Shown here: positions 7,901-56,535 of the stretch, in pieces
Layout: every line of letters begins with the position of its first letter
Numbering within the stretch: position 1 is the stretch's first letter
DNA from: Siphonodentalium dalli
Lineage: Eukaryota > Mollusca > Scaphopoda > Gadilida > Siphonodentaliidae
NCBI GenBank assembly: GCA_032622095.1
Contig: CP136067.1
Coordinates: 200,284,052 to 200,348,051, forward strand
Length of the DNA: 64,000 nucleotides
Direction of reading: 5' to 3'
Made by a program: the position numbers and the translations under genes
Notes under the pieces: model-generated
Told to the model about the DNA's origin: nothing
Databases searched by the model: none
The model's input: only the letters and a program-made list of their open reading frames with translations

Positions 7901-8425
7901 CAAAATCTGGTGTTTCACCTCTTTTGTGGAAAAAGAGACGGACCATGTTACATATGATATTGCGCGTTTCTGTTTTATCATTTCGCAGTATGAAAATGAA
8001 TTTTTTTTTATTTCATCGAAAAAAAAAACGGAGAAGACACTTTAAAATAAAATGTTCCTCGGTTTCCGTCTCCAATCCACACTTTCTGCATATTCTCTTG
8101 TCTACAGATATATATGTTTAATCTTCCAACCAAGATATATGGTACGAAGAACAAAAACAAACAAAAACGGAAGGACAATAAACAATACCTATCCTTAGTC
8201 ATGCTCGGAGAAGTCGAGTCTCGATTATTATTGCTGCGTTGTGCTTTGGGGGGGGGGGGGGGTAGTGGAATAGACGAAATTATTGGCCCTGGCTAAATTT
8301 GACAATTTGATTAGTCTTTTTTCGCTTATCGGCGCATGGCATATGATTTAACAGGAATCTTCGGTTGTGGTGTTGCACATTCTTTCAAACAAATCGCCGT
8401 TGTTTTATCAAAGTACGTTGCGAGT
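7900..8425. other. No gene seen; contains a 16-18 nt poly-G run
   Basis: AT-rich unique-looking sequence. A poly-G tract sits near 8249-8266. Short ORFs are low-complexity and have no recognisable domain. Confidence 0.6.
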
Positions 8426-11919: not shown

Positions 11920-12424
11920 AAAGAGGCCCCTTCATGAACGAATTCCGATCGGTAGATACGGCCCCTTCATGAACGAATTCCGATCCGTAGATACGGCCCT
12001 TTCATGAACGAATTCCGATCCGTAGATACGGCCCTTTCATGAACGAATTCCGATCCGTAGATACGGCCCTTTCATGAACGAATTCGATCCGTAGATACGG
12101 CCCTTTCATGAACGAATTCCAATCCGTAGATACGGCGCCTTCATGAACGAATTCCGATCCGTAGATACGGCGCCTTCATGAACGAATTCCGATCCGTAGA
12201 TACGGCGCCTTCGTGAACGAATTCCGATCCGTAGATACGGCGCCTTCATGGGTGAATTCCGATCCGTAGATACGGCGCCTTCATGAACGAATTCCGATCC
12301 GTAGATACGGCGCCTTCATGAACGAATTCCGATCGGTAGATACGGCGCCTTCATGAACGAATTCCGATCGGTAGATACGGCGCCTTCATGAACGAATTCC
12401 GATCGGTAGATACGGCGCCTTCAT
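11920..12424. repeat. 35-bp minisatellite, about 14 copies
   Basis: Head-to-tail units containing GGCGCCTTCATGAACGAATT and CCGATCCGTAGATAC. Early units read GGCCCTTTC and later ones GGCGCCTTC, and the last ones share GATCGGTAG, so variants are clustered along the array. Units abut directly without spacers. Confidence 0.95.
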
Positions 12425-13329: not shown

Positions 13330-13495
13330 CTGTCGCCACGTCCCTGCCTCGGGCGGTACCCCCGGGGTGATGGGTGGGGATCGGAATGTTTTTAGGGGGT
13401 ATTTGGGGCGGTACCCACCCATACCGTCAAATCGGCCGAAAGAAACATTTTTGAGAATAAGGAATAACGAATAGGGAATAAGTTCCAAATGTCAT
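13330..13495 (-). repeat. 145-bp unit plus its flank, reverse orientation
   Basis: The 145-bp unit (GTCAAATCGGCCGAAAG) is followed by AACATTTTTGAGAATAAGGA and GGGAATAAGTTCCAAATGTC. This is the reverse complement of the left border of the 35.6-kb array. The shared flank runs up to about 13,494, so the same junction exists at both places. Confidence 0.8.
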
Positions 13496-14114
13496 GTTCG
13501 TCGTGCAATCTTCTACAGACATCTCGGCTCTAGCCATTGAAGGAGCTTTACATTTACATTCATTGAACAAAACGTGTGAGCAGACAGTACGACAATTGAG
13601 TCATTTTGGAAAAATCCAGTTATTCTATGGGAAACATTCCCCATTTTCACAGTTCTATAGCTGCGAGTTTGTAATAGAAGGAATCATTTATAACTGTGCA
13701 GAACAGTACTACCACAAACAGAAAGCTATCTTCTTTGGCGATTTTGAAAGGGCCGCTATCATTAGCAAACTCACCCAACCTTACATGATGAAAAAACATG
13801 GTAGAGTAGTAAAGAACTTCAATAAGGATCGATGGACACCCGCAGCTATAAACATAGTGAAAAAGGCGAACCTTCCAAAATTTGAGCAAAATCATCGGCT
13901 CAAACTCTATCTCGTTGATTCGTACCCGAAGAATCTCGCGGAAGCTAGCCCAACAGACAGCTTGTTGTGAATAGGTCTCGCATCCACTGACCCTCGGGCC
14001 CGGAACGTTCAACACTGGCGAAGAAGGAACCTGTTGGGACAGTGTTTGGTGACAGTTAGAGACGCTATAATCAACGAGTCGATGATACCGGAAGCTGATG
14101 TAACAAAACTATAG
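13494..14114 (+). pseudogene. NADAR (YbiA-like) domain gene with one in-frame stop
   Basis: NADAR proteins are N-glycosidases acting on riboflavin intermediates and ADP-ribose-type substrates. The open part codes for 158 residues. The domain starts at about residue 42 with LFYGKHSPFSQFYSCEF, then the AEQYYHKQKAIFF stretch (Glu70 at the conserved active-site position), KHGR and W114, and ends in PTDSLL. After the TGA at 13,968-13,970 the same frame continues for 47 codons with IGLASTDP, W, LLGQCL and TVRDAI, the family's C-terminus, to a TAG at 14,112. The stop falls where the family has the Gly of a (I/L)WGIG motif, and the Trp before it reads Leu. So one or two base changes seem to have broken an otherwise intact frame. 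The first ATG lies in a repeat flank. TTCTACAG at 13,510 could be a splice acceptor, so this may be an exon or a retrocopy. Confidence 0.8.
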
Positions 14115-14525
14115 AAAACCACTATTTCTGTAATATCACACGGAGGTAACATTAAATATCCGGTCAGTACATATTTTTTTGATTTCATTTCACCATATTG
14201 CATCATTAACGTCCCCCTCCCCTATTTAAAATGGACTCGCCCCGAACCTTTGCCCTCTCCGAATCAACATCGTCAATTCTGGTGAAAACGAAACTCGCCG
14301 GGGTGGTGAGTGTTTTGTTAAGGGGGACCCCAGAAAACTCGAGTCCTCGCGGGACTTGTATCACTCGGTGTTGGACTTGATTAGACAAACGGTACCTGAC
14401 ACCCCCACACACGTTGCATCGTTCTATGACCTACTTCGCACATTCTATTTACGTTTCCCACCAATTTTCAAATCCAATTGATCCCTAATTACTCAAATTT
14501 CCCGCCATTATCTTATAAGGAGTAG
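14115..14525. other. No gene seen
   Basis: Stretch between the NADAR pseudogene and the LTR element. A 68-aa reading frame on the minus strand (14,412-14,206) has no recognisable features. GTAG at 14,522-14,525 is the left target duplication of the LTR element. Confidence 0.5.
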
Positions 14526-14980
14526 TGTGAGGTAATGACACATGTATATAGTAGGTACAAGTCTTTATTATGTTGTGAATAAGATATGCAGTGTGTACAA
14601 ATATAATGATCAATAGTCGCCGCGAATTGGTGTCCCCGAATGGGTGATGCCTGGTGTGAATGATGCCTGGATATGATCTAGGTACGAGATGAGTCTAGTG
14701 AAAGCATGATGTGATGGGATGTAGTTGTTTCTTATATACTATTTGGGATGCATATTAGATGAGGTGTTTGGCAATACACATCGGGATTGGTTCTTCCGTT
14801 ATGGTCATCTCCCTTGACCATATTTGGGAGCCATCTTCATTGTGTGTATATCTTCGCTGAGAGTAAGACGTGTGAGGTTTCGAGAACCGAACACGAATAT
14901 CTGAGTTTGGGGTTTTATATATTGGGACATTCGTATAGTTTGAATCAAGTTGTGAGATTATAATGGGTAGTTATCTCACA
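14526..14980 (-). repeat. 3' LTR (455 bp)
   Basis: Starts TGTGAGGTAA and ends TTATCTCACA on the plus strand, an inverted TGTGA/TCACA end pair. In element sense TATATAAA lies at 14,921-14,914, about 60 nt from the LTR start, and AATAAA at 14,569-14,564. This puts U3, R and U5 in the usual order. Confidence 0.95.
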
Positions 14981-14984
14981 TATG

Positions 14985-14994
14985 TCCCCCACCC
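14985..14994 (-). promoter_or_regulatory. Polypurine tract next to the 3' LTR
   Basis: In element sense GGGTGGGGGA lies 4 nt before the 3' LTR, the position where plus-strand DNA synthesis is primed. One T interrupts it. Confidence 0.6.
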
Positions 14995-14997
14995 GTG

Positions 14998-16170
14998 TAA
15001 GATTTTTAGCGCAGCGGAAAATCTTGTGTAACATCAAAATTATGGACCTAACTGGGGTTATTGTGATTATGTAATGTGGATGAGGCTGAAATGAAGTATA
15101 ATAACATTGATTGTGGTGAAGTTATGATTAATACATGTGGAACAAAGTTGTCTTAAAATGATGATATGCGATATTAAGTTGTCTTAAAGTGATGATACGC
15201 AATATTATGAGATTATGAAATAAATGGTGGGAAAAGCATATATGGGTTGGTATATAAAATGATCGTGCAAGCAGTCATAATGCGTGCTATATTGATATGT
15301 AGGCTAAGGTATGATAATAGAATATAGAGATACAAGTATGAGAAGTAATGAATATAACAATACGGTAATAGTGCATGGTATGTTTTGTCAATGATGAACA
15401 TTGGTGATGTATTATATAAATGCATGTTGTATTGTTAATAAAATCATGACGATATGTATACATTCGGTATTGTGGTAATGAGAGACCAAATGTTTCTCAT
15501 CTGCCGTCAATTGCACAGGGAATTGTTGAGAGCATGTGTCAGAGGTGAAATATTGTTTGGAGTGTGGTATATGAGACTTTGATTAATGCGTTTGTTGATA
15601 GTTGGCGAGTTCCGTGACCAATGTTATTGAAGATAATCGGCGGTCAGTTGTCTAACTCTTGGGGTTGGCACGTGTCATATCTGCCGTTAATTGCTCAGGG
15701 AATTGTTGAGAGCATGGGTCAGAGGTGAAATATTGTTTGGAGTGTGGTATATGAGACTTTAATTAATGCATTTGTTGATAGGTGGGGAGATCCGTGACCA
15801 ATGTTATTGAAGATAATCGGCGGTCAGTTGTCTAACTCTTGGGGTTGGCACGTGTCATAATGGCGTTATTATATGCAGCTGACGTGGTATGCATGCAGTA
15901 ACGATATTAGAATTAGTCTGTGGGTTTTGTGCCCCTTATAGGAAAAAAAATGGTATTATTGGGAAAATGATCAATATAGATTAAGTGGTGGGTTATGGAT
16001 GGACGCGTGAGTTTTCATTATTTTCATAGGTCGTAGTGTGGATGATTCTTCATCGACATCTCGCGGGTGTTTTTTGGGAAATGTCAAATCTTCTTGTGTG
16101 ATTTGTATTTGAGGTTCCTTAGCTGGAGACAAATGAATATCTTTCGTGGCTTCATTGGATATTGGTGGGG
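14998..16170. other. Untranslated region between env and 3' LTR
   Basis: About 1.2 kb without a credible ORF. It holds the 180-bp duplication (15,499-15,858). The remainder is AT-rich. Confidence 0.6.
15499..15858. repeat. 180-bp direct duplication inside the LTR element
   Basis: 15,499-15,678 and 15,679-15,858 are tandem copies differing at a few bases (ATCTGCCGTCAATTGCAC against ATCTGCCGTTAATTGCTC). They lie between the end of env and the 3' LTR, in what would be the 3' untranslated region. Confidence 0.95.
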
Positions 16171-18246
16171 TTAGTGGTGACGAAGTTGCATATCAGTTCC
16201 CTTTATCATTTGGTTAAGTTTATTTCGTCGCTTTGCGATTTTAATTCGTCGCGTGTTGTGATTGCGTTGAGTCTGGTATTGGGAAATTTTCGTGATACAC
16301 TGAATAATGTATTTGCGACTTGAGATGGCAATCAGTAAAATTAATACGAACGTAATGACCGCGGGAATGATAATTTGGTAATAATCCTGTTTTTTCTTTT
16401 GTTTGATGGGTTGCAGGGATGTGACTGTTTGCAGAAAATCATATAATGATAGTTGCTTTATGGGGGGTAACTTGTTTGGAATCGATACTTGAGGGGGCAA
16501 GTTATGAATTTGGGAAAATAATGGCTTCCATTGTGGCAATTTATGTAATTCAATAGTTGATTGTAATTGGGTTATTTGTGTCTTGATGGTGATGTTTGAT
16601 GAGTTCAAAGTTGTGAATGCAATTAGTTTGATACTAGCTGATGTAGCTATGCACCTTGGTGGTAAAGTTATCGTTGCGATGGGGGGTAAAATTGTGATTC
16701 TATACGGTCGTTTTCTTAAGAGATTGTGATGACAGTTTACTGTAAATGTATGAGCTTTCGTGGTTGTTATAAGCCATGTACATGCCGCCAGCTTAATAGC
16801 GGATGGTAAATTATACTGAGGGTAAATGGCTATAGGGCAATTTGTGGCGGTATTTTTTGTATCATTGGTGAATATGTTGAGTAGGCAGTTATGATTATGT
16901 GATGCGGCGATTGAAATTTTTTGAATTTTACAATATGGTAATTTGTTTAAAATACACGGGTGATTGTCACCAATGGTGGTATATTTGGATCGGTCGGGAG
17001 ATAATAGCAGGTAATTATGAGTAATATCGATTCGGGCAACTGTATATTTATTGTTGTGTCTGAGTCTTGGGTCTCGAGGGTCTAATGGATAAAAAAATGG
17101 TATAGCGCGGAATATGTCAAACTGCATTCTGATATCGCGTAAATAAATTGTTATGGTAATGATTAGTCTGCTGTCTGTGAGTATGGTTTGTGTCTTCAAA
17201 TGTTGGTAATATTTTGCAATTCCCGATTCTATGGGGAATGGTAACTTCAAATGGGCTGGAAGTAATTTCGTTATACTGTCAAGTGCCTTTTTTAAATGTA
17301 TTGGGCTTATGATCTCCGGTGTAAATCGGTCGTTAATTAGAGAGGCAATTTGAACTTTAAGATGTCGCAAATATAATTTTGCTTGGATAACATCTTGTTG
17401 TATTTCGTGTAATATTACTAGAAATTTAGCGTTGATGATTGTGAATATTTCAATTGTATGCACATGTTTTTGGGTTCGATGTGTTTCTTTTCGAAGTGTG
17501 GCTTGAATATTGGATATTGTTGTTGATAATGTGTTGACTCGTTGGCGATTTTCGTTTGAAATGACGCTTGTTATATTCATGATAGAATAAGCGGTTTGAG
17601 TATCGTGTTGGATTTTTTTTTGGTTTTGGTAGAGGGTTCGTATGTTATCTTCTACATGTGTAATATCTGACATCGAATGGGTGCCAAATAAAAACTTAGC
17701 TATATCGCTTATTACGGGTAATATTGCTCGTTTGAGTCTTTTGGTATTATGGAGTTGATAATAATTATGATATTCATATTGGATTTGTTTTGTTTCCGTG
17801 AGAGCCGCTGCTAATTCAGTTTGTAAATCTGTCAAAATGTTGATGAGATTAAAGTTAATGTTATTTGTCTCGTTCCTGAATGGAGGTTTGTTATGGTGAT
17901 ATGTGCTTTGATGAAACGTGGCACAAATGCTATTGAGTTTATTTTGGGCCATCCTTATGTCGGTAGCGAGTCTTGCTATGTAGGTATAATATGGTGTGAG
18001 TTCGATGAGAAAACTGAGATCCCAATTTTCATTTGAGACAGCAATTTGCCGGTTATGCAAAAATAACATGTTCTGTCGAGTTAACATAGCGTCACTAGTT
18101 TGAAAGCCGATGATAAGTATGAAGAGGGTCGCTTTAACGAAGTTTTCTTTAGGCTTCATATCGCTTGCACCCCTATAAGTAAAAATATAGGTGTGTATTA
18201 GCGGGTTAGCCGGTATCTGATTATAAAGATAGATTCGCGTGGGCAT
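16171..18246 (-). CDS. env: Env-like fusion glycoprotein (baculovirus F/errantivirus type)
   Basis: The 691-residue frame has the layout of a class I fusion protein of the F family, which merges viral and cell membranes. A hydrophobic signal-like stretch lies at residues 35-50 just after Met30, which is probably the real start (18,159). A furin-type RLKR site at 170-173 is followed by AILPVISDIAKFLFG, the fusion-peptide position seen in F proteins. F1 has a Cys-rich region (C431-C532), and a membrane segment lies at about 624-642 with a basic tail. One Cys (C108) lies in the F2 part. Residues 1-29 may be intron or leader: TTACTTATAG just upstream of Met30 looks like a splice acceptor, as expected for a spliced env mRNA. 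The frame is open throughout. Function is inferred from layout only. Confidence 0.85.
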   Translation of the reverse strand: MPTRIYLYNQIPANPLIHTYIFTYRGASDMKPKENFVKATLFILIIGFQTSDAMLTRQNMLFLHNRQIAVSNENWDLSFLIELTPYYTYIARLATDIRMAQNKLNSICATFHQSTYHHNKPPFRNETNNINFNLINILTDLQTELAAALTETKQIQYEYHNYYQLHNTKRLKRAILPVISDIAKFLFGTHSMSDITHVEDNIRTLYQNQKKIQHDTQTAYSIMNITSVISNENRQRVNTLSTTISNIQATLRKETHRTQKHVHTIEIFTIINAKFLVILHEIQQDVIQAKLYLRHLKVQIASLINDRFTPEIISPIHLKKALDSITKLLPAHLKLPFPIESGIAKYYQHLKTQTILTDSRLIITITIYLRDIRMQFDIFRAIPFFYPLDPRDPRLRHNNKYTVARIDITHNYLLLSPDRSKYTTIGDNHPCILNKLPYCKIQKISIAASHNHNCLLNIFTNDTKNTATNCPIAIYPQYNLPSAIKLAACTWLITTTKAHTFTVNCHHNLLRKRPYRITILPPIATITLPPRCIATSASIKLIAFTTLNSSNITIKTQITQLQSTIELHKLPQWKPLFSQIHNLPPQVSIPNKLPPIKQLSLYDFLQTVTSLQPIKQKKKQDYYQIIIPAVITFVLILLIAISSRKYIIQCITKISQYQTQRNHNTRRIKIAKRRNKLNQMIKGTDMQLRHH
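18160..18190 (-). promoter_or_regulatory. Candidate 3' splice site for env mRNA
   Basis: In element sense ATATTTTTACTTATAG|GGGT, with the AG at 18,174-18,173, lies 14 nt before the ATG of Met30. Pyrimidine content is moderate. A spliced subgenomic env RNA is the rule in errantiviruses; the donor was not located. Confidence 0.45.
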
Positions 18247-18349
18247 GGCTTATATGGGTTAACTGGTTTGATTAATCAATGAGATTTTTCGGCCGGTGTA
18301 AGTTTACTGTTTACTGTGTATCTGGGTACCCCCAGAAATCGACGAAATA

Positions 18350-18357
18350 TGACGTCA
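18350..18357. promoter_or_regulatory. CRE palindrome TGACGTCA
   Basis: A perfect CREB/ATF-type site between the divergent env and antisense gene A, about 80 bp upstream of the latter's TATA-like box. It could serve either strand. Confidence 0.5.
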
Positions 18358-18435
18358 CGCGATGCCAGTGTGTGTACCAATTAGCCGCGCTGCGTGCGCT
18401 AGGCATGTCGACGAAGGTAATTAGTGGTATAGCGG

Positions 18436-18441
18436 TATAAA
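18436..18441 (+). promoter_or_regulatory. TATA-like box of antisense gene A
   Basis: GGTATAAATG lies 62 bp before the ATG at 18,498. The same arrangement (TATA-like box about 50-60 bp before the matching ATG) is seen at antisense gene B. Confidence 0.5.
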
Positions 18442-18497
18442 TGCGTTTGTATGATGGCTGGAAAATATTACGGGCCTGTCTTTCAATCTTTGCAGTT

Positions 18498-18803
18498 ATG
18501 AGTCAACTTTTAAGTGAGTTAGAGTGTAAGTTAAGCCACGCGAGGGCGTCTGGTCTAGGTTATTTTGGGGTGATCGTCGATTCGATATATCTGACGTACG
18601 TGAATGATCAGATAGTCGATCAATTTGAGCGGGGAAATGAGCATGCCCGGACTGGGGTATCATCCAAGAGCGATCGATATCTGTGTACGTTGTGGCTGGA
18701 GGAAAATGAGAGGTGTTACCTCGTATTAAATTTGAGGAGGCAGATTAGGGAAGAGAGGAGAAGGTTGATAGCTCTGTGGTCGGAAGAACAGACTGACTGG
18801 TAA
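18498..18803 (+). CDS. Antisense accessory gene A of the LTR element
   Basis: A 101-aa protein of unknown function, encoded against gag, pol and env. The frame is open from an ATG at 18,441 (120 aa), but that ATG overlaps the TATA-like box. The ATG at 18,498 starts MSQLLSELE, which aligns with MSDYLRFLE of gene B, so I chose it. The C-terminal 33 residues contain ERCYLVLNLRRQIREERRRL and then LWS, a charged segment likely to be helical or coiled coil. Sixteen of these 33 residues are identical in gene B, at the same distance from the end. No signal peptide or membrane segment is evident. The two genes must come from one ancestor, duplicated inside this element or its forebear. Antisense regulators such as HTLV HBZ are a parallel in position only; no homology is claimed. 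Confidence 0.7.
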   Translation: MSQLLSELECKLSHARASGLGYFGVIVDSIYLTYVNDQIVDQFERGNEHARTGVSSKSDRYLCTLWLEENERCYLVLNLRRQIREERRRLIALWSEEQTDW

Positions 18804-20540
18804 GACGGAGTTGAGTTGGGCCGGCTGATGGGGGAGATTTGAGGAGGTTTGGCAGGAGGAGTGAAGGAGAAAGATGGGCCCAATCTTTGATAGCTGTTTG
18901 TGCCTATATAATTTAACGTGGGCTACATCGTGCTAATGAAGATTGGTTTCATTGAAAACATCACATGGACATCTGAATGTGAATGACGAGTAGTGTTGCT
19001 GTATTATTTATAAAATGTATGTGTCATAGGGTGTAGGTATACCAACAGTCATGTCAATATGGATATCAAAAGGCATATGAATAAATGCGTATTGTGTACT
19101 GCTATATATAGGTTCTTATTGCTATATTTGACATGATTATTGGCATTGTATATGAATGGTAATTGTATGTTCCTATTTAATTGTATTGATATATTTGAAC
19201 AAAATGTGTTTCTGACGTGATATTTTGTTCCTGGACAAATTATATCGGAAATTTGTATTCCGTTGTCCTATTGGAACAACTCGATGATTGTACGTGTGTG
19301 GGATTTGGATGAAGAAACTTGATGCTTCTATATACGTGGGTTCTATACATCGTTTCGCCTTAATGAATAGTAATGGTAGTATGAACTGATGTTGGACATG
19401 TGTTAATTTGAGTTATAAGATCCGATATAGGGCGTATATGAATATGTTATTAATGACAGTTAATCATTGGCAAGTATATTTGACAATAATATATGGGGTA
19501 GGGAAGAATATGAAAAATATTGCTTAAGGACTGACAATATTTGTGTCGTTTGGGATAAAGTGCACATGGTGAGCCTATTTTGGCACTGTATATGCACATT
19601 TTGGTAAGCGGCGGTATTGGGTGAAGTTTGTACGTGAATTTCGTGTTCACGTGTATTGGATTTTTGTTTTATGCACGATATAGATGCATGTGGGGTCCGT
19701 GTATTGCGCGTTACATGTATGTAAGAGTGAGCTTCAGTTAGCTCTGTACATGTATCTGGGATTTTTATGCACGATTGTGCACTGTGTGTTCTATACATGT
19801 TAAGTTAACTGGGCCTTGATTGGCCGTTAACATGTACGTTGTATTTGGAGATTTTCTTGTGGAAGGGCGTTCGGGTATCATGGGAATTGGATGGGGAATT
19901 GTATCTCACTAGATACGTGGGGGGGGGGGGTAAGCGTACTAAATCGTTAAGGAAGGTTCACCTATCGGTGTTCATGTCGTAATAATTGGTGTGTGTGTGT
20001 CACTTAAGTTTGTTATTATGATACACTTGTGAGGTTGTGAACCTTGGTTAATTATTTCATCTAAATAGGATTATTTGAGTTTGATGAATAATTATGGATA
20101 GTTTTGGTTATGTTATGAGGCAGAAAAATTGGCTGGGTAATGTTTGTTTATGTTATTAGTTTATGTTTATGTTGAAATATTCCTATTTATTGATATGATA
20201 CTTGTGTAACATATTTTTATTGTATTTATTTATTTTATTTTTTTGAGGGAAGCAAGTTTTAGCCCTGTGTGCATGGTGCACCGATGCACACTGGACTTGC
20301 CAGCATTGAGTTATATCTGATTATTAGATGATGTTTAGTGTGTTTATTTATCATTGGATATTATGTTTAGATGTATCGAAGAGATATCGCTTGATAGCTG
20401 GTTAGATGTTAGCGGGAACAGGGGTTTGTAATATATATTTGAGATAGATAGTGCCTAGCATGTCCCTCGGGAATCTTCGAGAGTGCTTGCTTGGTTTGGC
20501 ACAGCGTCCCGATTCCATACGGACGCTATCTGCCAATATG
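18804..20540. other. Spacer between the two antisense genes
   Basis: About 1.7 kb, AT-rich, with no credible ORF. It contains a poly-G run near 19,919, an AATAAA at 19,079 that could end the gene A transcript, and a small perfect hairpin GTGTGCAT...ATGCACAC near 20,266. Confidence 0.5.
20503..20527. promoter_or_regulatory. Inverted repeat upstream of antisense gene B
   Basis: AGCGTCC...GGACGCT with an 11-nt spacer lies about 20 bp before the TATA-like box of gene B. It could be an operator-like or structural site. Inference only. Confidence 0.3.
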
Positions 20541-20546
20541 AGATAA

Positions 20547-20556
20547 GTATATAAGG
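20547..20556 (+). promoter_or_regulatory. TATA box of antisense gene B
   Basis: GTATATAAGG, 53 bp before the ATG at 20,600, in the same relation to the start codon as the box of gene A. Confidence 0.6.
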
Positions 20557-20599
20557 TGTGGGAATATCGACAAGGGTTATCTCTGACATAATTTTCATT

Positions 20600-20875
20600 A
20601 TGTCTGATTACCTGCGATTTTTGGAGGCTGAGGTTGCTGTGTTAGAAACGAGCCAATATGAGGTAACAATGCAATATGTGGATCACATATTGGCATTTTA
20701 TGATGTTATAGTTGCTGTGTGCCTGGCTGGAGGGACCAGTATAGATTGGGCACGGTATTTGAGTACCGTGTCTGAATTAGAACGATGCCACAAGGTGATA
20801 AATCTCCGGCTGGAGATTATAGATGAGAGGCAGAGGATAATAGACCTATGGAGCCAACATCGGAGAGTGCTATAA
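20600..20875 (+). CDS. Antisense accessory gene B, paralogue of gene A
   Basis: A 91-aa protein of unknown function on the strand opposite to pol and env. The frame is open from a GTG at 20,558, but the first ATG is at 20,600, giving MSDYLRFLEAEVAVLE, which lines up with the start of gene A. The C-terminal segment ERCHKVINLRLEIIDERQRI plus LWS matches gene A (E.ERC..V.NLR..I..ER.R.I.LWS), 16 of 33 identical. The N-terminal halves are similar only in length and helical character. Both genes have kept open frames despite this divergence, which suggests selection. It is tail to tail with pol. No domain was recognised. Confidence 0.7.
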   Translation: MSDYLRFLEAEVAVLETSQYEVTMQYVDHILAFYDVIVAVCLAGGTSIDWARYLSTVSELERCHKVINLRLEIIDERQRIIDLWSQHRRVL

Positions 20876-20879
20876 GAAG

Positions 20880-21280
20880 ATGTTGGTGTGACTGCTGCCC
20901 CTGAAGAATTCGGACCGTCCCTGGATCAAGAGCTGGCTTGCATTCTGCAAGCTGGCACGGTGTTTAGCCAACAATAACATGAATTGAATTGTTTTTGTGG
21001 TTATTCACCGTGTTAGCCTGTAGAAATAACATCTTGCTGATAAATTCAGTGAAAAGAAATGTATTTTGTTTGTTGTTGTTGTTGTTATTGTTGTAATCGT
21101 GGTAATGGCCCAAAGGTGTTAATATTGGTTGAGATACAAAGAGTAACTTTTGTAAACGTGCTAAATCGCCAAAGATTATTTAATTATAGTCTAAGATTGG
21201 TTGAAATGTAAAGAGATAAATATATTTATTAGACCGCTGCCAAGAGTTCAATACTGTTATTGATTGGATTATCTAAGTTT
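20880..21280. other. Spacer after antisense gene B
   Basis: AT-rich, with a GTTGTTGTTGTT microsatellite near 21,074. No gene seen. Confidence 0.5.
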
Positions 21281-21284
21281 TAGA

Positions 21285-21830
21285 ATGAAGAGCGTTTGTT
21301 TGTTCGAGGGGGGGGGGACGGTGTAATGGTGACTTTCATATTAGGATTGGGAAATACTGAATATCTGGGTGATGCATGCCGTGGTTAATATTCCACACGC
21401 CATATAACAAAAGGCGTTTAGTGGCAGTTTTAGGGTGTCATGACCTAAAATAAGGTCGGACAAATGTCCGTTACAATGAGATAGGGATTGGGGAAGTGTT
21501 GTTGATGGGATAAATGCCGTGGTTTATGTACCAATCGCTCTATAATGAAGAGCGTTTTGTGGCGGTATTGGGGGGGGTGATATTGAGGGAAATATGCCGT
21601 GATTATTGTATCAACTACTATATAATATATATAGTGTATTGTGGCGTTGGTGGGTGGGGGTGTCTACATTGAGGGATAATATGCCGTGGTTTCTGTACCA
21701 ATCGTTCTTATGATAAAGAGCGTTGTTTGGCAGGAGGGGGGGGGGGTGGTATTGAGGGAAATATGCCGTGATCACTGTATAACCTACTGTATAATATATA
21801 GTGTATTGTAGCGTTCGTTTGCTATGTCAA
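21285..21830. repeat. Array of about five hairpin-bearing repeats inside the LTR element
   Basis: ATGCCGTG(G/A)TT recurs near 21,377, 21,514, 21,593, 21,687 and 21,764. Each copy is followed by a short palindrome: ACGCC..GGCGT, CGCTCTATAATGAAGAGCG, ACTATATAATATATATAGT, CGTTCTTATGATAAAGAGCG, ACTGTATAATATATAGT. A G-rich run (GGGGGGGTG) and ATTGAGGGAAAT come next. The copies differ in loop and arms but keep the pairing, which is a sign of structural constraint. Confidence 0.75.
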
Positions 21831-22286: not shown

Positions 22287-25200
22287 CTATGAATGTTCGA
22301 TATCAGTTGTCATCTGATATAAATCATATGTTTCCGTACTTTCGTTTGACCAATTTGTCGAACGGCTGTCGGGTGATGTATATTGGAAGGAATTAGAAAA
22401 CGATGAATCTTTAGGCGTGTGTTTGGAGTATGGTGAATATATTTTACGATGCCGGCCGCGTTTGTTATCTGCGCGATCAGATTTTGTGTCTGGCGTTGTA
22501 CGAAAAGAATTTTGCGTAATTAATTTGTGTTTTATGATATTTGGTTCCTGTGTTTGGGGCCTAGATTGGTCGCTGGGTGAAAAATCCGGGGGTGATTGGC
22601 TGTCTGTTTTATTAAAATGTTTCGAAGCCATGAGTCTGTTGGCTAATTCAGCCAATGGTATTGAAGAGCTGTCGTCTGTGTTTGAGCGCTCAAGTTGAGC
22701 GCGCTTAATTGCCGTGGTTTTGAGGTCATCGTCTGATTCCAATGTGGATTGAGAGCTATTATTATCGACACTGGCTTCACTCGGTGGAAATGCAAATCGA
22801 TTATGTCGTTTATTTTTTAAGTGATTGGGAATTTGAGGTGTAGGCCAATCAATGGGGGATGGTTTGATGTGTTTAGCATGTGATTTTGTTAATTTAGCAG
22901 ATAGGTCATGTCTTAATATGTAAGATATGGGGCCTGTCTGTTTCAAGATACGCCAAAACGGGTCATATTTAAATGAAAATTTGTGATTTGGTTGGTGGAT
23001 TTTGTAATAGACGGATTGGCCTATTTTAAAGGTTGGAATAGATCCACCTTTGTTCTGTTTGTGGTTGCGAGAGGCTGTTTCGAGAAGAGATTTTGTAGTT
23101 TTAAAAATAATGTGTTGATTTTGAAGCGTGGTGGCTAAAAAATCCTCTCCTAAATACTTTTCTCTGTGTGTTAAAATTCGGTCTATGCTTATCTGTGGTT
23201 CTCTAAAAAAAGTTAGAAAAAATGGTGAATGTGTATGTACACTGGAACAATGGAAGTTCATTGCTTGTGATGCATAATTTAGATATAGGTCCCAATTTTC
23301 TACATTTGCTTGGGTGATTGTTGAAATGATTGATGCTAGACTTCTATGCGAACGTTCTGATTTACCGTTACTTTGGGGTCTGTAGAACGAAGTGAGGCGG
23401 TGATTGATATGGTAATATTTACAAAATTCAGTGAAGGTAGAGTTTGCAAACTCGGACCCATTATCTGTTAATATTTCTTCAACTGATCCAAATAAAGTGA
23501 AATACTCTGAATTCAATCTTTCTAAAATTGTATCCACCATTTTGTTAGGTAATGCGTATGCTAAAGTATGTAATGAAAATTGATCAATAATAGTTAAGAT
23601 AAATCTATTTCCTGACTGTGTTTTGGGGGAAAATGGTCCCATAAGATCGATAGCTATGAGTTGTCCTGGCCTTGATGGGGCAGTGACTGGTTGAAGCGGG
23701 ATTTTTGGATTATAAGCATTTCGTTGTCGGCATGTATGACAATTGTTTATGTATGTGACAATTTTTGCAAACAACTGAGGTGTGTAATATCTGTTCCGTA
23801 TGGTCGCGTATAGCGATTGTACCGCTCTATGGCCGAGACTGTGATATTGGGATATAACTTCTTGTGCTATTTTGTCCGTTATATATATACGTAATTTAGG
23901 TATGTCATTATATATTGATATATAGTGTAGGATACCATCTTTGAGAATAAAGGTTTTTGCTAATTTTTCGGGTATATTTGTTGATTGCATTTGTTTGATA
24001 ATCTCGGAGATTGTGTGGTCTCCTGATTGTTCATCTCTTGTATTAGTTATAGGAGGAAGGACCGGGCTGTCGTCGAGATCAACTGGTGGTTCGGAATCCG
24101 TTTTCTGTTTTGGTTGTTTTTTTTGTTTTGAAAATTCCTGAATATCTTTCATGTCAAGTATATTAATATCCTGTACAAGGGGATTGGTGGGTGGATTTGG
24201 GTCGCTATCGGTGCAAGAATTGATGCACGGGTGTGTGTCGGGGTTTATCCGACTGCAAAAATCTGCCGTAACATTGTTCGTGCCTTTAATATAAGTAATT
24301 TTTGGGTTCAATGCTGATATTTCCAAAAACCATTTTTGAATTTTTGTGTTTATCAGATCCTGTTTTTTAAACATGTGGATGAGGGGTAAGTGATCTGTTT
24401 TAATCTCTACTTGGGATCCTTGTAAGTAAAATTTAAATTGCCTTGCAAACGTATATATCGCGAATGCTTCTTTTTCCGTGACAGAATAATTCCTTTGTGA
24501 TTTGTTAAGTTTTTTACTGGCGAACGCGATTGGTAGTTCAACGTGTTTATCATCTTGGCTATGAGCATATTGTGATAGTATCGCCCCGATACTATGTATA
24601 GATGCATCTACTGTCAGAATGAACAGTTTGTCGGGATTTGGGTAAGCTAAGATGGGGGCGGTTGCTAAGCTTTTTTTAAGCGCGTCGAACGCTGTTTGGC
24701 ACGGCGCATCCCACACAAATTTAGCATATTTGGCTGTGAGTTTGATTAAAGGCAATGCCGTCGATGCGAAAGTAGGAGAATATGACCTGTAAAAATTAAG
24801 AATTCCCAGTAATCTGCGGACTTCTTTAACTGATTTCGGAGGTGGTAAAGACTTGATAATTGAAATTTTTTCAGGGTCAGGGGATGTGCCCTTGTCAGAA
24901 ATAATATGCCCTAAAAATTTAACTTGTGGTTGGCAAAATTTAGATTTTGATAGTTTAACTATTAAGCCGTATTCCCTGAGTCTGTCAAATAATTTTGTGA
25001 GCTGCTGTATATGCGTTTGAGGATCGGAGCTATGACAGATCAGGTCATCGACAAATCCTTCTACAAATGGTAAATCGTGTAGGGCCATGTTCATGAGTTT
25101 TAAAAAATACCCTGAGCTCGAGACATATCCCATCGGGGCTCTTTGATAACTGTATTGTCCTTCGGACGTATTCATAGTTAATATGGGAACATCTTCGGGT

Positions 25201-27035
25201 ACGACTCCAATAACATGATAAGCATTTGATAAATCAAAGATACTGAAAATAGTTGAGCCGAGTAACTTGGACGATATTTCTGTAAAACTAGGCATAGACC
25301 ATTTTAATGGAATGGAAACATCATTGAGTTTTCTGAGATCGATTACCAATCGATAATTGGGAGTACCATCGGGATTGGGTGTGGCTTTGCGTATGAGGAG
25401 ACTGGGAAATCCCCACGATGAGTGGGCCGTTGGTCTAATAATGTCTGCATCTAATAATTTTTTTATCTCAGCAGCCATAATTCGTTGTTTGTTCAGTGGT
25501 GTCGGATATTTTTTGCAAAAAATAGGTAAAGTATTTGGTTTGAGGTCGATTTTCATTTTAATTTTTGGACAATATCCTATCTTGTTTATGTCATTTGTAA
25601 AAACATCAGGGTATTGTGATACTAGTTGCAATATCTGCTGTTTAAGATGTTGAGGTGCCACGATATCATTGGCAGATATAGGTTGAGTCTTGGTGACTGG
25701 AGGGTTAATGTCTTGCCGGTCACCTATGGTGTTTATACTGTGTTTGTTTGGCGGAGATGAGTTAATGTTTTGCTCATCGGATGCCGTGCATATCATTTGC
25801 TCTTGAGTGCCAAATGCTTGTGCTATCACACGGCCTTTCTTAATGGACATATGTGACGCCGATTGGTTTTCTATCATGACGCAAATATTGGGATTATTTG
25901 CATCTGCTAGCGTGTCGGTTACATGTACATTTGGTTCGTGTTCGAAAATGGACATGTTACCTTTGCCTATTCGGATTATAGGTGTGTTAAACATATCATT
26001 TGGCCCTATGAGTCTGCCTGTTATGATGGCGCATGAGTGGGGTGATAATGAAACGTTATTTGTTGATCGGATGAGTGATGCAATGTGACCATCCCTTAAC
26101 ATCGGGTATAATTGATTCTGTATTCTGAATTTTTCTAGATCAAAGTAAAGTCTAATACTGTGTTGTTTCATAAAATCGCGCCCTAAAATGCAAGGACGTG
26201 ACAAGGTTGCACATATGACAAATTTGTGAGTAAGAATGAGTTTTCCGATTCTAAATGTGAGATGTGTGGATCCAAAAACTTTCATTGGTGTACCATCGGC
26301 TGATGTGAGTAACACATGTTCTTTAATTAAAGGTGGTCGATTTGGCATGGATCTATAAATGTCGTATTTCAAGCAACTGGTGGTTGCCCCGGAGTCTAAT
26401 AGTGATCTAATCCGTTGTTTGTGTATTTTAATGATAGTTGAGCATGGTGTTTGGTTTAGAGCACCATCTGTCATATCACTTGGATATTTAAGTACTGGTA
26501 TAGTGTGTTGTATGGGTTTGACTGGTGGTATTATAGGGTTAATTGCAGTATTGGAATGTGATTCGCGAGAACTGGTGCATGTTGATTTTCTTTTGGATGA
26601 TGAGTAAGAATTAGTAATGTGTTGGTGCTTGGGCTTTTCAAGGCGATTCAGGGTTTTAAATTGGGGAGGAAAGGTTAAATTCAGAAGTGGTGAGATAGAC
26701 TTATTGGAAGAATTATGAAATCTGGGTTTCATAGAGGAACACCTGCTATGGCAGAAAGTGGTATGTGTTACGTGCCTGTGGCGAGGGAGATCAAGTGGAG
26801 GCCGCGTACGGTAATTAATATATCGGTGGTTTTGGCAGTTTGGTGGTAGCGTGGGGTAATGATTAATGGACTGCAGTTGTGAATTATAGACTCTATGCTT
26901 TTGAGATTCGTGTGTTCGATGATCTTTAGCATATCTATGATTGTGGTTGTATATTGTGCTAATTTGATGTGTTATTGGACTCATTGCGTTGCGTTGGTGG
27001 GTGGGGGTGAAATTTTTGATGCAATGAGTCCTCAT
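22287..27035 (-). CDS. pol: Pol polyprotein: protease, RT, RNase H, integrase
   Basis: 1582 residues from the first ATG; in life it is probably read as a Gag-Pol fusion by frameshifting. Protease: LLDSGATTS, catalytic DSG at 214-216. Reverse transcriptase: FDLSNAY at 600-606 and FVDD at 661-664, where most relatives have YVDD. RNase H: TVDAS with D810, E856 and D881. Integrase: zinc-binding H1065/H1069/C1099/C1102, catalytic D1130, D1191, E1227 with the D-35-E spacing, then a GPY/F-type region at about 1340-1390. A polar tail of about 190 residues follows. PR-RT-RH-IN is the Ty3/gypsy order. All catalytic residues are present and the frame is open, so the enzyme may be active. The first 180 residues are His/Pro/Ser-rich and overlap no known domain. 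Confidence 0.95.
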   Translation of the reverse strand: MRTHCIKNFTPTHQRNAMSPITHQISTIYNHNHRYAKDHRTHESQKHRVYNSQLQSINHYPTLPPNCQNHRYINYRTRPPLDLPRHRHVTHTTFCHSRCSSMKPRFHNSSNKSISPLLNLTFPPQFKTLNRLEKPKHQHITNSYSSSKRKSTCTSSRESHSNTAINPIIPPVKPIQHTIPVLKYPSDMTDGALNQTPCSTIIKIHKQRIRSLLDSGATTSCLKYDIYRSMPNRPPLIKEHVLLTSADGTPMKVFGSTHLTFRIGKLILTHKFVICATLSRPCILGRDFMKQHSIRLYFDLEKFRIQNQLYPMLRDGHIASLIRSTNNVSLSPHSCAIITGRLIGPNDMFNTPIIRIGKGNMSIFEHEPNVHVTDTLADANNPNICVMIENQSASHMSIKKGRVIAQAFGTQEQMICTASDEQNINSSPPNKHSINTIGDRQDINPPVTKTQPISANDIVAPQHLKQQILQLVSQYPDVFTNDINKIGYCPKIKMKIDLKPNTLPIFCKKYPTPLNKQRIMAAEIKKLLDADIIRPTAHSSWGFPSLLIRKATPNPDGTPNYRLVIDLRKLNDVSIPLKWSMPSFTEISSKLLGSTIFSIFDLSNAYHVIGVVPEDVPILTMNTSEGQYSYQRAPMGYVSSSGYFLKLMNMALHDLPFVEGFVDDLICHSSDPQTHIQQLTKLFDRLREYGLIVKLSKSKFCQPQVKFLGHIISDKGTSPDPEKISIIKSLPPPKSVKEVRRLLGILNFYRSYSPTFASTALPLIKLTAKYAKFVWDAPCQTAFDALKKSLATAPILAYPNPDKLFILTVDASIHSIGAILSQYAHSQDDKHVELPIAFASKKLNKSQRNYSVTEKEAFAIYTFARQFKFYLQGSQVEIKTDHLPLIHMFKKQDLINTKIQKWFLEISALNPKITYIKGTNNVTADFCSRINPDTHPCINSCTDSDPNPPTNPLVQDINILDMKDIQEFSKQKKQPKQKTDSEPPVDLDDSPVLPPITNTRDEQSGDHTISEIIKQMQSTNIPEKLAKTFILKDGILHYISIYNDIPKLRIYITDKIAQEVISQYHSLGHRAVQSLYATIRNRYYTPQLFAKIVTYINNCHTCRQRNAYNPKIPLQPVTAPSRPGQLIAIDLMGPFSPKTQSGNRFILTIIDQFSLHTLAYALPNKMVDTILERLNSEYFTLFGSVEEILTDNGSEFANSTFTEFCKYYHINHRLTSFYRPQSNGKSERSHRSLASIISTITQANVENWDLYLNYASQAMNFHCSSVHTHSPFFLTFFREPQISIDRILTHREKYLGEDFLATTLQNQHIIFKTTKSLLETASRNHKQNKGGSIPTFKIGQSVYYKIHQPNHKFSFKYDPFWRILKQTGPISYILRHDLSAKLTKSHAKHIKPSPIDWPTPQIPNHLKNKRHNRFAFPPSEASVDNNSSQSTLESDDDLKTTAIKRAQLERSNTDDSSSIPLAELANRLMASKHFNKTDSQSPPDFSPSDQSRPQTQEPNIIKHKLITQNSFRTTPDTKSDRADNKRGRHRKIYSPYSKHTPKDSSFSNSFQYTSPDSRSTNWSNESTETYDLYQMTTDIEHS

Positions 27036-27044
27036 CTGTTTAAA
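26977..27044 (-). promoter_or_regulatory. Programmed -1 frameshift signal at the gag-pol junction
   Basis: In element sense the gag frame ends TTT TTA AAC AGA TGA. The heptamer T TTA AAC (27,044-27,038) is a canonical -1 slippery site in the correct phase. Six nucleotides (AGATGA) follow. Then GGACTCATTGC (27,031-27,021) pairs perfectly with GCAATGAGTCC (26,987-26,977) across a 33-nt loop. After the slip the next codon is CAG, then the ATG of the pol frame. The gag TGA and pol ATG overlap as ATGA, so reinitiation is the alternative. Confidence 0.85.
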
Positions 27045-28174
27045 AATTGGTTGTTATTTTGAGGCCGACGTCTGCATTGGTCTGTGGTATGATTGTTTAA
27101 TCTGCAGTATGTACAGAATAGGGGTCGTTGAGCTGTTGTAGTATATCTTGCATCCATGGTCTGGATGCGGTTTGGATGGGAGACCCTTGGTTCAGAGTAG
27201 GGGTGGTGAGAATTTGAAGGTTGGCGCCTGTGGGGGTGATCATTGATTCGGTGTCTGTCTTTGGATTGACGGGGGTTGTAAGTGGATTGTGATGGCCCTC
27301 TTGGAATGTGCCGATGGTTATTGTCGATATCCATTGGTTGAGGGGATTGTAACTGTGGGAATTGGTTATAATCATTATGATGTTCACCGTAACGTAAGCG
27401 ATATCGTTGCCGAAGGTTCATTTCGCGTAGGGCGATATCAGTAGCTCTATCAAGCGTTATGGGGTCGTCTTTGAGAAGCCTGAATTTAATACTAGAGTCG
27501 CGAATACCGTCGGAAAAAAATGCTACTAATTGTGTTTGCACTGCTCTTGTGTTAATTTCATCAGTATACGCGTGTTTAGCAAGGGTATGTATGCGTTCTG
27601 CAAACATGGCAATTGTTTCCGTATGTCTCTGCCTAATGGCTCGTAATGAGGAAATGGCTTGAGGCGAATCAGTTATGGAACTGAATAATGAGCGTAACTG
27701 TGATTTCAGATCGGTCCAGGTGAACGTGAATTTTCCGTCTGTGTTATTTTCATTTATGAAGCGTTGAATAAATTCAGAAACTTGAGATTTACATGTCTGA
27801 GCGGCAATTTTTATGATAGTCTCATCTTGTGCCGAAATCGCGCGGGAGTATTTTTCCACCGCATGGACCCATTGGGGAAAAGCGTCAGGCTTGCCATCGA
27901 AGGGTTCAATAATGGAATTCATTCCCAGCAGTGCTGTTATTGTTGTTTGTGTTTTCAAACTTTCAGTCTGTTCGCGGATAGAACTAGTGAAATGGCTAAT
28001 TTCATGGGTAAGCCGTGACAATAGCAAGTTTTGATTATCTTTGCCCATTTCATTAGTAATGTCTGTGTGGGGGGATCTGGCGGTTGATCGGTCCGTTTCC
28101 CTGTTTAATTCAAGGTGATGCTGATAATTACTTGGATGAAAATAATCGCTGCTCTGCGGAGGTGGTGACTCCAT
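27032..28174 (-). CDS. gag: Gag structural polyprotein
   Basis: 380 residues. Gag assembles the virus-like particle and packages the RNA. The central part (about 90-250) fits a capsid-type region, with FDGKPDAFPQWVHAVEKYSR near its start, as in other Ty3/gypsy Gags. An Arg/His/Pro-rich stretch follows (about 265-350). One CCHC zinc knuckle, CTYCRLNNHTTDQC, lies near residue 355-368 (CX2CX4HX4C) and would bind RNA. The frame ends at the frameshift site and overlaps pol by 4 nt. The frame is open and looks functional. Confidence 0.9.
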   Translation of the reverse strand: MESPPPQSSDYFHPSNYQHHLELNRETDRSTARSPHTDITNEMGKDNQNLLLSRLTHEISHFTSSIREQTESLKTQTTITALLGMNSIIEPFDGKPDAFPQWVHAVEKYSRAISAQDETIIKIAAQTCKSQVSEFIQRFINENNTDGKFTFTWTDLKSQLRSLFSSITDSPQAISSLRAIRQRHTETIAMFAERIHTLAKHAYTDEINTRAVQTQLVAFFSDGIRDSSIKFRLLKDDPITLDRATDIALREMNLRQRYRLRYGEHHNDYNQFPQLQSPQPMDIDNNHRHIPRGPSQSTYNPRQSKDRHRINDHPHRRQPSNSHHPYSEPRVSHPNRIQTMDARYTTTAQRPLFCTYCRLNNHTTDQCRRRPQNNNQFLNR

Positions 28175-28299: not shown

Positions 28300-28680
28300 T
28301 CATTTATTAGGATGTTTTATGGGAATTGCCGCGACTATAGAGTTGACGATAAGTTTTGGATAATCCGTAAAATGAGCCGGAAATGTATGCCACTCGTTCC
28401 AAGAATCTAGTGTATGTCCTGAGTAGTTATTTGTAATCATACAACGCACGTATAAGCGGATTGTATCTTGCGTTATATCAATGCGAATGGGATTGCAATA
28501 TTTAATGAGTTGTGGCGATAAAGTTATTTGGTGGGGTAAAGCGTATCTACAGTAAGTTTTAAAATGAAGAACTGAATGTTGTTTGTAAGAGGTGGGTGGT
28601 ATGGGCTGATCGTTTGAAGCATGTATTGTAGTAGGATGGGTAGGTAGTGTAGGTGTAGTAGAATCAGGTGATGTGTCCAT
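28300..28680 (-). CDS. Unrecognised 126-aa ORF between 5' LTR and gag
   Basis: Starts with an ATG just after a CACGTG and a poly-pyrimidine run, and ends 125 bp before gag. The first 35 residues are Pro/Thr/Ser-rich. The remainder looks like a compact fold, with FKTYCRYALPHQITLSP, DTIRLYVRCMI and DSWNEWHTFPAHF. No domain or known Gag module was recognised. Gypsy elements normally begin with gag, so this is an extra gene or a leader ORF. It may be an accessory protein or a separated matrix-like segment. The coding call rests on ORF length, composition and position. Confidence 0.5.
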   Translation of the reverse strand: MDTSPDSTTPTLPTHPTTIHASNDQPIPPTSYKQHSVLHFKTYCRYALPHQITLSPQLIKYCNPIRIDITQDTIRLYVRCMITNNYSGHTLDSWNEWHTFPAHFTDYPKLIVNSIVAAIPIKHPNK

Positions 28681-29002
28681 AACCCACGTGAAAAAAAAAG
28701 GAGTAAAAGAATGCTAAAAATAGGGGGTGTGCAATTTGACAGCAAATGGGAAAGAAAAGATGGTCACTCACCAATTTCCGAGAAGAATAATGTGCACAAG
28801 TCTGTGATGATGAATGATGTATAGAATGTTCTCGTCGTGGTTATTGGAAGCCGAAGGATGTCCAAATCGGATGTTAAAGTTTATGTGGATCTGAATCTGG
28901 TCTGCAAGAGGCGTGAGTAGTAATATTTTTTTTTAGCTGGATACACGATGTGAGCTGGTTGTATAAGAATAAAAGGTTGATTCGTCTATATCAGATGAGT
29001 AT

Positions 29003-29282
29003 GTATGCGGTCCTGTGTGTCCGAAGGGTTGGTGTGCGGTCCTGTGTGTCCGAAGGGTTGGTGTGCGGTCCTGTGTGTCCGAAGGGTTGGTATGCGGTCC
29101 TGTGTGTTCGAAGGGTTGGTGTGCGGTCCTGTGTGTCCGAAGGGTTGGTATGCGGTCCTGTGTGTCCGAAGGGTTGGTATGCGGTCCTGTGTGTTCGAAG
29201 GGTTGGTGTGCGGTCCTGTGTGTCCGAAGGGTTGGTATGCGGTCCTGTGTGTCCGAAGGGTTCCTGTGTGTCCGAATGGTTG
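29003..29282. repeat. 29-bp minisatellite in the 5' leader of the LTR element
   Basis: About ten copies of a unit containing GCGGTCCTGTGTGTCCGAAG and GGTTGGTGT; variants alternate TGT/TAT and GTCC/GTTC. Because 29 is not a multiple of three, the plus strand is open in all three frames; these ORFs are artefacts. It lies between the primer-site region and the 126-aa ORF. Confidence 0.95.
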
Positions 29283-29440
29283 AGTTATTGTTGACCGGTG
29301 CAGTGGTCTAGTGTATGAGACTGTCTATCCGTGGCTGGAGTGTAAGGCTGTATCCCCGTGGTTGAGTAGCGGTTTGAGATTGTTTCTGCTCTGTAGTGAT
29401 CGTCTAGTGGCCGAGACTTCAAGTTGTGTGGTGAGACGTA

Positions 29441-29458
29441 GAACTGCTCATGGTACCA
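29441..29458 (-). promoter_or_regulatory. Weak candidate primer binding site
   Basis: In element sense TGGTACCATGAGCAGTTC lies 9 nt after the 5' LTR. TGGTACCA fits the 3' end of a tRNA-Leu(UAA)-type molecule, but the match fades after 8 nt. No better candidate was found. Confidence 0.35.
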
Positions 29459-29467
29459 TTAATACTA

Positions 29468-29922
29468 TGTGAGGTAATGACACATGTATATAGTAGGTAC
29501 AAGTCTTTATTATGTTGTGAATAAGATATGCAGTGTGTACAAATATAATGATCAATAGTCGCCGCGAATTGGTGTCCCCGAATGGGTGATGCCTGGTGTG
29601 AATGATGCCTGGATATGATCTAGGTACGAGATGAGTCTAGTGAAAGCATGATGTGATGGGATGTAGTTGTTTCTTATATACTATTTGGGATGCATATTAG
29701 ATGAGGTGTTTGGCAATACACATCGGGATTGGTTCTTCCGTTATGGTCATCTCCCTTGACCATATTTGGGAGCCATCTTCATTGTGTGTATATCTTCGCT
29801 GAGAGTAAGACGTGTGAGGTTTCGAGAACCGAACACGAATATCTGAGTTTGGGGTTTTATATATTGGGACATTCGTATAGTTTGAATCAAGTTGTGAGAT
29901 TATAATGGGTAGTTATCTCACA
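29468..29922 (-). repeat. 5' LTR (455 bp)
   Basis: Reads as the same sequence as the LTR at 14,526-14,980. It should drive the genomic RNA from the TATATAAA at 29,863-29,856, with AATAAA at 29,511-29,506. Confidence 0.95.
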
Positions 29923-30372
29923 GTAGGCCTGGCTTGGAACAGTCCATTGTATGGACCAGTCCACCCATATTAGCGAGTAGGGGTGTCAGGTACGTTACCT
30001 AGTGTCATTTACTAACTACTTCCGAGACATCGACCGCTGAGCTATTGTCACCAATTTCAACAAACTTTCCCGCCATAGCTGGTTTTGAACTGGAACCTAC
30101 CGCTTTGTAAGAAAAGTGTCCAATATATCCCACGAATCCACACGATCGTCGGATATCGCACTCAATATCTAATGATAAGTGTCCTTTGACGCAACTAAAC
30201 GAGTGAACATTATAATATCACCAGTTTATGAAGTTTTAAACGACTTTTCTCTCAAAAATTCTCTCTCGAAATTCAAAAGCGTCTTTCCACCGCGCATGCG
30301 CAATCAATCACTGATATATTGTCATGATGTACGATTGTTAAACAAAATCTGTGTTTACAAGTGACTGGACAA
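29923..30372. other. No gene seen between the two LTR insertions
   Basis: Unique-looking sequence. GTAG at 29,923-29,926 is the right target duplication of the full element; ACAA at 30,369-30,372 is the left one of the solo LTR. Confidence 0.5.
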
Positions 30373-56440: not shown

Positions 56441-56535
56441 AGCAGTCTGTCGCGTCGCCCAATCTTTCACCCGAGATGACTGCGCTGTGAACTCGACACT
56501 TGCCCTGACTGGCTGGCGACCTAAAGCCCCCCGCA

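Follow-up and report, generated by a model that had tools for sequence, protein, structure and literature searches.

Antisense paralogous genes under purifying selection in the pol-env spacer of an env-bearing Ty3/gypsy-type element of Siphonodentalium dalli

Gypsy elements of plants and fungi, and some retroviruses, are known to carry accessory genes on the antisense strand; in the available parts of the literature, their function is mostly unknown and no related pair is described. In the maize Ty3/gypsy element Grande, gene23 lies antisense between pol and the 3' long terminal repeat (LTR), has a promoter upstream of the gene and encodes a nuclear product, according to the available portions of two papers (PMC7264820, PMC11963269). 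This article deals with a mollusc element in which two such genes occur together. A complete LTR element of 15.4 kb lies on the minus strand of a 64,000-nucleotide stretch of Siphonodentalium dalli DNA (C7:200284052-200348051, hereafter the window, within a searched genome of 2.23 Gb in 9 contigs). Its pol-env spacer, about 4 kb long, carries two genes, here called A and B, which run antisense to gag-pol-env.

Other described elements offer further points of comparison. A survey of Retand elements, as far as its text is available (PMC11963269), reports a long region between POL and the 3' LTR, antisense coding regions in all clusters and 104 antisense open reading frames (ORFs) of more than 600 bp. 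Tandem repeats occur in about half, many of the antisense ORFs carry TRP28, and the author suggests a regulatory role; in the same portion of text, an Env-type sense ORF was not found in the POL-3'LTR region (PMC11963269). The fungal element Boty also carries antisense ORFs (available parts of PMC7264820 and PMC11963269). Gypsy elements that carry an envelope gene are said to occur widely among metazoans (PMC13172572, available in part, which cites Chary and Hayashi 2025). An annelid survey mentions antisense ORFs (aORFs) only in its introduction, going by its accessible portion (PMC8220671), and the accessible portion of a study of bdelloid rotifer elements names no antisense ORF (PMC5408684). 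Troyka was set aside on account of its CG...CG ends and 3-bp duplications, as given in an excerpt of PMC12440569. A literature search, which did not reach most subscription papers, brought up no account of two antisense genes paired in an animal gypsy element.

Gene A (101 amino acids, 18498..18803) and gene B (91 amino acids, 20600..20875) both occupy the plus strand. An earlier note on this DNA had placed two plus-strand ORFs at these positions in the pol-env spacer of a minus-strand LTR element, and had described them as identical at 16 of their last 33 residues, at equal distance from the stop, and as starting alike with MSxxLxxLE; these observations all hold. A direct blastp comparison yields 22 identities over 46 residues (E=1e-10, for a single comparison), and the alignment score was reached by none of 5000 shuffles. 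The resemblance belongs to the plus reading frame, in which the BLOSUM score is 81; none of the other five frames exceeds 35. Eight of the 16 identical residues in the last 33 are encoded by differing codons, and the DNA similarity of the two genes (score 24) falls below the best of 200 shuffles (31). Judged by their proteins, A and B are paralogous. A cis-acting DNA duplication as the source of the similarity was rejected, because the DNA similarity does not exceed that of shuffles. An origin from another ORF of the element was also rejected, since among the 25 best pairs of the 39 open frames of at least 70 codons, the only pair involving A or B is A-B.

The possibility that A and B are random ORFs with a chance or low-complexity resemblance draws on the modest rates at which long ORFs appear in the spacer. 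Dinucleotide shuffles of the spacer produced a plus-strand ORF of at least 101 amino acids in 49 of 1000 cases and of at least 120 in 13 of 1000, and a second plus-strand ORF of at least 91 in 7 of 1000; ORF length alone is modest evidence for the two genes. This explanation is nonetheless refuted, and deserves practically no credence, in view of the empty result of the 5000 shuffles, the intactness of most fetched copies and the presence of the genes in two element families. Homology and codon constraint together reject chance ORFs.

The second family was reached through distant matches to A (37-38% identical), which led to the locus L081. Compared with the window element, the env part of L081 is 40% identical (residues 39-273, E=2e-50) and the end of its pol is 42% identical (residues 1012-1580, E=2e-137). 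Between pol and env it holds two genes, A' (103 amino acids) and B' (89 amino acids), in the order and on the strand of A and B. The alignment scores are 135 for A-A', 100 for A-B, 70 for B-B', 63 for A'-B', 52 for A-B' and 48 for B-A'. Three of 2000 shuffles reached the score in each of the pairings A-B' and B-A', and none did so in the other four. Since A pairs best with A' and B with B', both genes were, most simply, already present in the common ancestor, and the A/B duplication appears to predate the divergence of the two element families. The earlier suggestion of element-encoded accessory genes that were duplicated and kept under selection stands, with the correction that the duplication does not look like one confined to the family of the window element. 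Among eight second-family loci, A' was found in all and is intact from ATG to stop in five; at one of the eight, L086, the similarity stops 79 bp past A'. Additionally, a third, damaged relative of A (70%) lies at L084, where the adjoining env fragment is at 66% and neither a pol match nor a separate B occurs within 5 kb.

Further copies of the window element were collected by a whole-genome search with A, which gave at least 115 matches (150 scored of 267 candidates); 3 kb were fetched at 72 near-full-length matches on nine contigs, the window's own copy included. The reading frame of A is unbroken in 66 of the 72 copies. B was matched downstream on the same strand in 69, has the same length in 66 and is intact in 58. 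The earlier note had regarded absence or random stops in other copies as fatal to its proposal, and the copies, picked by having A, turned out mostly to carry both genes intact. B begins between 1230 and 2157 bp past the stop of A, and this variability indicates that the spacer changes around genes that are retained. At eight loci, one of them that of the window itself, more flanking sequence was covered; in all eight, env adjoins A on the opposite strand, head to head, the env match being split over two frames in two of the eight. In the copies found through A, there is thus an ORF after pol, antisense to gag-pol and kept in most copies, which is how Grande- and Retand-type antisense genes are recognized. 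As a separate observation, several A-like matches fall within about 3 kb at G000:C3:53420922-53424174, a pattern suggestive of amplification in place or of A fragments nested in a cluster.

Selection was assessed by the ratio of nonsynonymous to synonymous change (dN/dS) between copies, in pairs that share history and are not independent. Near-identical pairs, with a synonymous difference (pS) below.02, gave 0.99 for A (402 pairs) and 1.31 for B (401 pairs), values near 1 being expected from mutations after insertion. At pS.02-.1 the ratio is 0.378 for A (323 pairs) and 0.13 for B (219 pairs). In diverged pairs it is 0.128 for A (932 pairs) and 0.101 for B (55 pairs) at pS.1-.3, and 0.074 (A, 488 pairs) and 0.068 (B, 978 pairs) at pS >.3. 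Four chosen pairs gave 0.05-0.09 for A and 0.05-0.06 for B in the plus frame, with Fisher p between 2.5e-8 and 8e-20; the ratio was 0.24-0.33 in one minus frame, probably because third positions fall together, and the other frames were at or above 0.6 or undefined. Between the copies L014 and L063, for example, identity at the first, second and third codon positions is.93/.95/.74 in A and.88/.96/.63 in B, the third varying most. In the second family, the ratio is 0.145-0.161 for A' and 0.137 for B', from few differences. A ratio near 1, which the earlier note had said would speak against its proposal, is therefore not what diverged pairs display (0.05-0.13), and both A and B have been under strong purifying selection while the element replicated.

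These ratios also bear on the idea that the antisense transcripts act as RNA, through double-stranded RNA or small-RNA control, with the ORFs incidental. Non-coding antisense RNAs are described for micropia and TART in the available part of PMC7264820. The low dN/dS of diverged pairs, with Fisher p values reaching 8e-20 in the plus frame, the protein homology of A and B unaccompanied by DNA homology, and the homology across families largely refute an RNA-only role, which is highly improbable; it was rejected on homology and codon constraint.

TATA-like boxes precede both ATGs, as the earlier note had reported: TATAAA at 18436..18441 (+), 62 bp before A, and TATATAAG at 20548..20555 (+), 52 bp before B. 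Elsewhere in the element, the octamer TATATAAG occurs only in the two LTRs, on the minus strand (29680 and 14738). The motif TATAWA is found before A at -50 to -80 in 69 of the 72 copies, at -62/-63 in 67 of them, and, among the 66 copies whose B has the same length, it precedes B at -50 to -56 in 65. In the second family it stands at -51 before A' in four of five intact copies, these four being near-identical, and at -63 to -65 before B' in four of four, three of them near-identical. Between L014 and L063, the 250 bp before A (.92) and the 150 bp before B (.91) are more alike than the spacer (.82, over 1293 aligned sites with 618 gap sites). The element's only TGACGTCA, resembling a cAMP response element (CRE), lies at 18350..18357 (+), 148 bp before A; it is kept in 68 of 72 copies and is absent within 150 bp before A' of L081. 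Downstream of A, AATAAA occurs at 19080..19085 (+), about 277 bp past the stop, and the same signal is found 250-290 bp past the stop in 69 of 72 copies and 196 bp past A' in L081. Taken together, these signals suggest that A and B are each transcribed antisense from an internal promoter of their own.

With respect to the products, low-confidence structure models of A and B consist of helices throughout, each protein having a long one at its C-terminus. The proteins are small and probably all-helical. Across seven A, A', B and B' sequences, the invariant columns are M1, L5, L8, Y31, E69, R72, R80, R87 and W94 (A numbering), and R80, R87 and W94 are spaced by exactly seven residues, as on a single helix face. 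The helix and its R-R-W ladder suggest pairing, perhaps of A with B, and perhaps nucleic-acid binding. A role as trans-acting regulators is taken as the first choice, followed by a role in the particle or with Env.

In that second role, A and B would be selected proteins that take part in structure or assembly together with, for instance, Env or Gag, or that help the element spread from cell to cell. The head-to-head position of A and env in all eight loci, repeated in the second family, fits such a role, and small, probably helical proteins would suit a binding partner. Proteins required alongside Env, however, would rather be expected on the sense transcript, and the antisense products of Grande and HTLV are nuclear according to the available text of PMC7264820 and PMC11963269. 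A structural role is accordingly considered unlikely, if worth keeping in mind.

The explanation regarded as probable is that A and B are accessory genes of an env-bearing Ty3/gypsy-type element, which arose by an old duplication, are kept by selection, have TATA promoters of their own and encode trans regulators. Coding capacity, paralogy, selection, antisense order and presence in two families are its observed parts. The two genes would have arisen by one duplication predating the split of the two families, and purifying selection would have maintained them through element replication. Each gene would be transcribed on the antisense strand from its own internal TATA promoter, the transcript of A probably ending at the conserved AATAAA some 270 bp downstream. 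The conserved C-terminal helix (E..R.......R......R......W) may pair the proteins with themselves or with each other, and the products most likely act in trans on the element, affecting transcription, RNA export or escape from silencing. Production of the proteins would then not depend on the LTR and could take place while it is silent or ahead of its activation.

Several observations weigh against this explanation. All copies were found through A, so the counts cover A-bearing copies only, and the dN/dS counts comprise only intact copies, 66 of A and 58 of B. Codon periodicity is not significant, being matched by shuffles in 358 of 2000 cases for A and 156 of 2000 for B. B' was found in only four of the eight second-family loci, some of them truncated or represented by too short a stretch. 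Of the 125 plus-strand ATGs in the AT-rich spacer, 30 have TATAWA 20-80 bp upstream; at L088, where A' is intact, TATAWA is absent from the 110 bp before it. After B, the window contains no AATAAA or ATTAAA before 21955, 1080 bp further on, and none was found after B in the copies, at least 400 letters past B being present in only 40 of 66. The models of A and B are of low confidence (mean pLDDT, the predicted local distance difference test, 61.5 and 64.2), and Pfam and PDB offer no convincing relative that would hint at function, weak Pfam matches lying below curated cut-offs where these are shown.

A last group of such observations concerns the start of the A transcript. A tract resembling a 3' splice site and ending in CAG (18472..18495, +) stops 2 nt before the ATG of A and is the best acceptor-like site in a scan of 18001-21000, and AGTT precedes the ATG in 70 of 72 copies. 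Both features fit a spliced antisense transcript that starts elsewhere, for example in the 3' LTR, where the antisense promoter of HTLV sits (PMC7264820, available in part); A and B would still be selected proteins. No strict-consensus donor, on the other hand, was seen on the plus strand from 14000 to 20600. In L081, A' lacks an AG directly before its ATG and the splice-site-like tract is not seen, but a TATA motif stands at -51; additionally, none of the ten best acceptor-like sites falls directly at the ATG of B. Expression by splicing is viewed as rather improbable, somewhat more so than a structural role.

The preferred explanation of A and B as selected accessory genes with their own promoters can be extended, tentatively and with less confidence than the explanation itself, to an ancient two-gene antisense module of an env-bearing Ty3/gypsy lineage, in which helical paralogues with their own promoters pair with one another and govern the sense transcription of the element or what becomes of its RNA. 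If such a module exists, A and B would represent a regulatory family to which the searches made here brought no relatives, retained in element families that share only about 40% identity in the compared pol and env parts, and akin to a retroviral regulatory pair yet placed on the opposite strand. Selection on both antisense proteins is seen directly, two families share the pair, and gag, pol and env stand in retroviral order. The genes offer a clean setting in which to ask what leads retroelements to encode regulators antisense, and a profile built from them can be used to look for this module elsewhere.

The element itself is bounded by two LTRs of 455 bp with TG...CA ends, the 5' LTR at 29468..29922 (-) and the 3' LTR at 14526..14980 (-). 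They are 100% identical, and the insertion is therefore young. A 4-bp target-site duplication, CTAC in the minus-strand reading, flanks them at 14522-14525 and 29923-29926. A putative tRNA primer-binding site, read by eye and starting TGGTACC, lies 9 nt past the 5' LTR (29440..29458, -). The gag gene (380 amino acids, 27032..28174, -) matches Pfam Retrotrans_gag (E=8.3e-7). The pol gene (1582 amino acids, 22287..27035, -) has Pfam matches at residues 202-296, 556-712, 775-907, 1054-1107 and 1121-1220, in the order protease, reverse transcriptase, RNase H and integrase, and its best solved relative is the Ty3 Gag-Pol (E=1.8e-75). Going by the order of pol domains, the LTR ends and the short target-site duplication, the element is of Ty3/gypsy type (Metaviridae). 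In the env position there is an ORF of 691 amino acids (16171..18246, -) in which a furin-like KRLKR followed by a hydrophobic stretch, and a C-terminal membrane-like segment, can be recognized by eye. As regards kinship with the baculovirus F-type fusion proteins, the hallmark of an errantivirus-like env, this env-like ORF has no Pfam match up to E=1, and its best PDB match (E=0.39) is an unrelated protein. Searches of wider collections, whose animal content is uncertain and which carry little weight for that reason, gave no homologue of A (4 candidates), of the A/B alignment (21 candidates) or, at E<=0.001, of the env-like ORF (6992 candidates); of 36 IMG/VR pattern matches to A/B none was confirmed, and pol had no match in IMG/VR and none among phages.

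Other features were noted in and around the element. A 137-codon open frame between the 5' LTR and gag (28300-28713, -), whose ATG-started part has no Pfam match, is possibly a further accessory gene. A frame of about 73 codons (15971-16192, -), acidic and proline-rich by eye, overlaps the end of env in a different frame, and a 112-codon sense-strand ORF (19460-19798, -) lies in the spacer between A and B. Repeats comprise nine 29-bp units in the 5' leader (29003-29262), two 180-bp units between env and the 3' LTR (15499-15859) and an imperfect repeat of 80/167 bp within the spacer between pol and env (21502-21815). Just outside the element, 31371-31519 is 77% identical to part of the LTR and is likely a remnant of a related LTR; an ORF with a NADAR domain (13494-13970, +; E=2e-25) adjoins the element. 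The window flanks contain long tandem arrays and large near-identical direct repeats (3325-5988, 8423-9184, 11925-12424, 35679-36905, 53282-56443).

Compared with known systems, the window element resembles errantivirus-like elements in its gag, pol, env order and Ty3-type pol, and differs from them in its spacer of about 4 kb with two antisense genes and in an env that has no Pfam match. The earlier note had named HBZ of HTLV (human T-cell leukaemia virus) as the precedent for an antisense gene with its own promoter, and HTLV-1 HBZ does share with A and B the status of an antisense protein gene in an env-bearing retroelement. The HTLV antisense promoter, however, is in the 3' LTR (PMC7264820, available in part), whereas the window element has two genes and internal TATA-like boxes, which point away from an HBZ-type start in the 3' LTR; moreover, A, B, A' and B' have no bZIP match in Pfam. 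In contrast to the Retand antisense ORFs, the four proteins also show no TRP28 match and no other convincing Pfam match. As far as the partly available sources go, Grande gene23 is a nearer precedent than HBZ, and the earlier statement that no such paralogous pair was known in a gypsy element agrees with the literature search. Like A and B, gene23 is an antisense accessory gene located after pol in a Ty3/gypsy element; unlike them, it is a single gene in a plant element, in a comparison that concerns arrangement and not sequence and draws on partly available descriptions. The window element, by contrast, combines two paralogous antisense genes with an env-like gene that lies downstream on the sense strand. 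A plant gypsy element already provides a case of an antisense accessory gene under its own promoter, and the paralogous antisense pair is a new variation on that theme.

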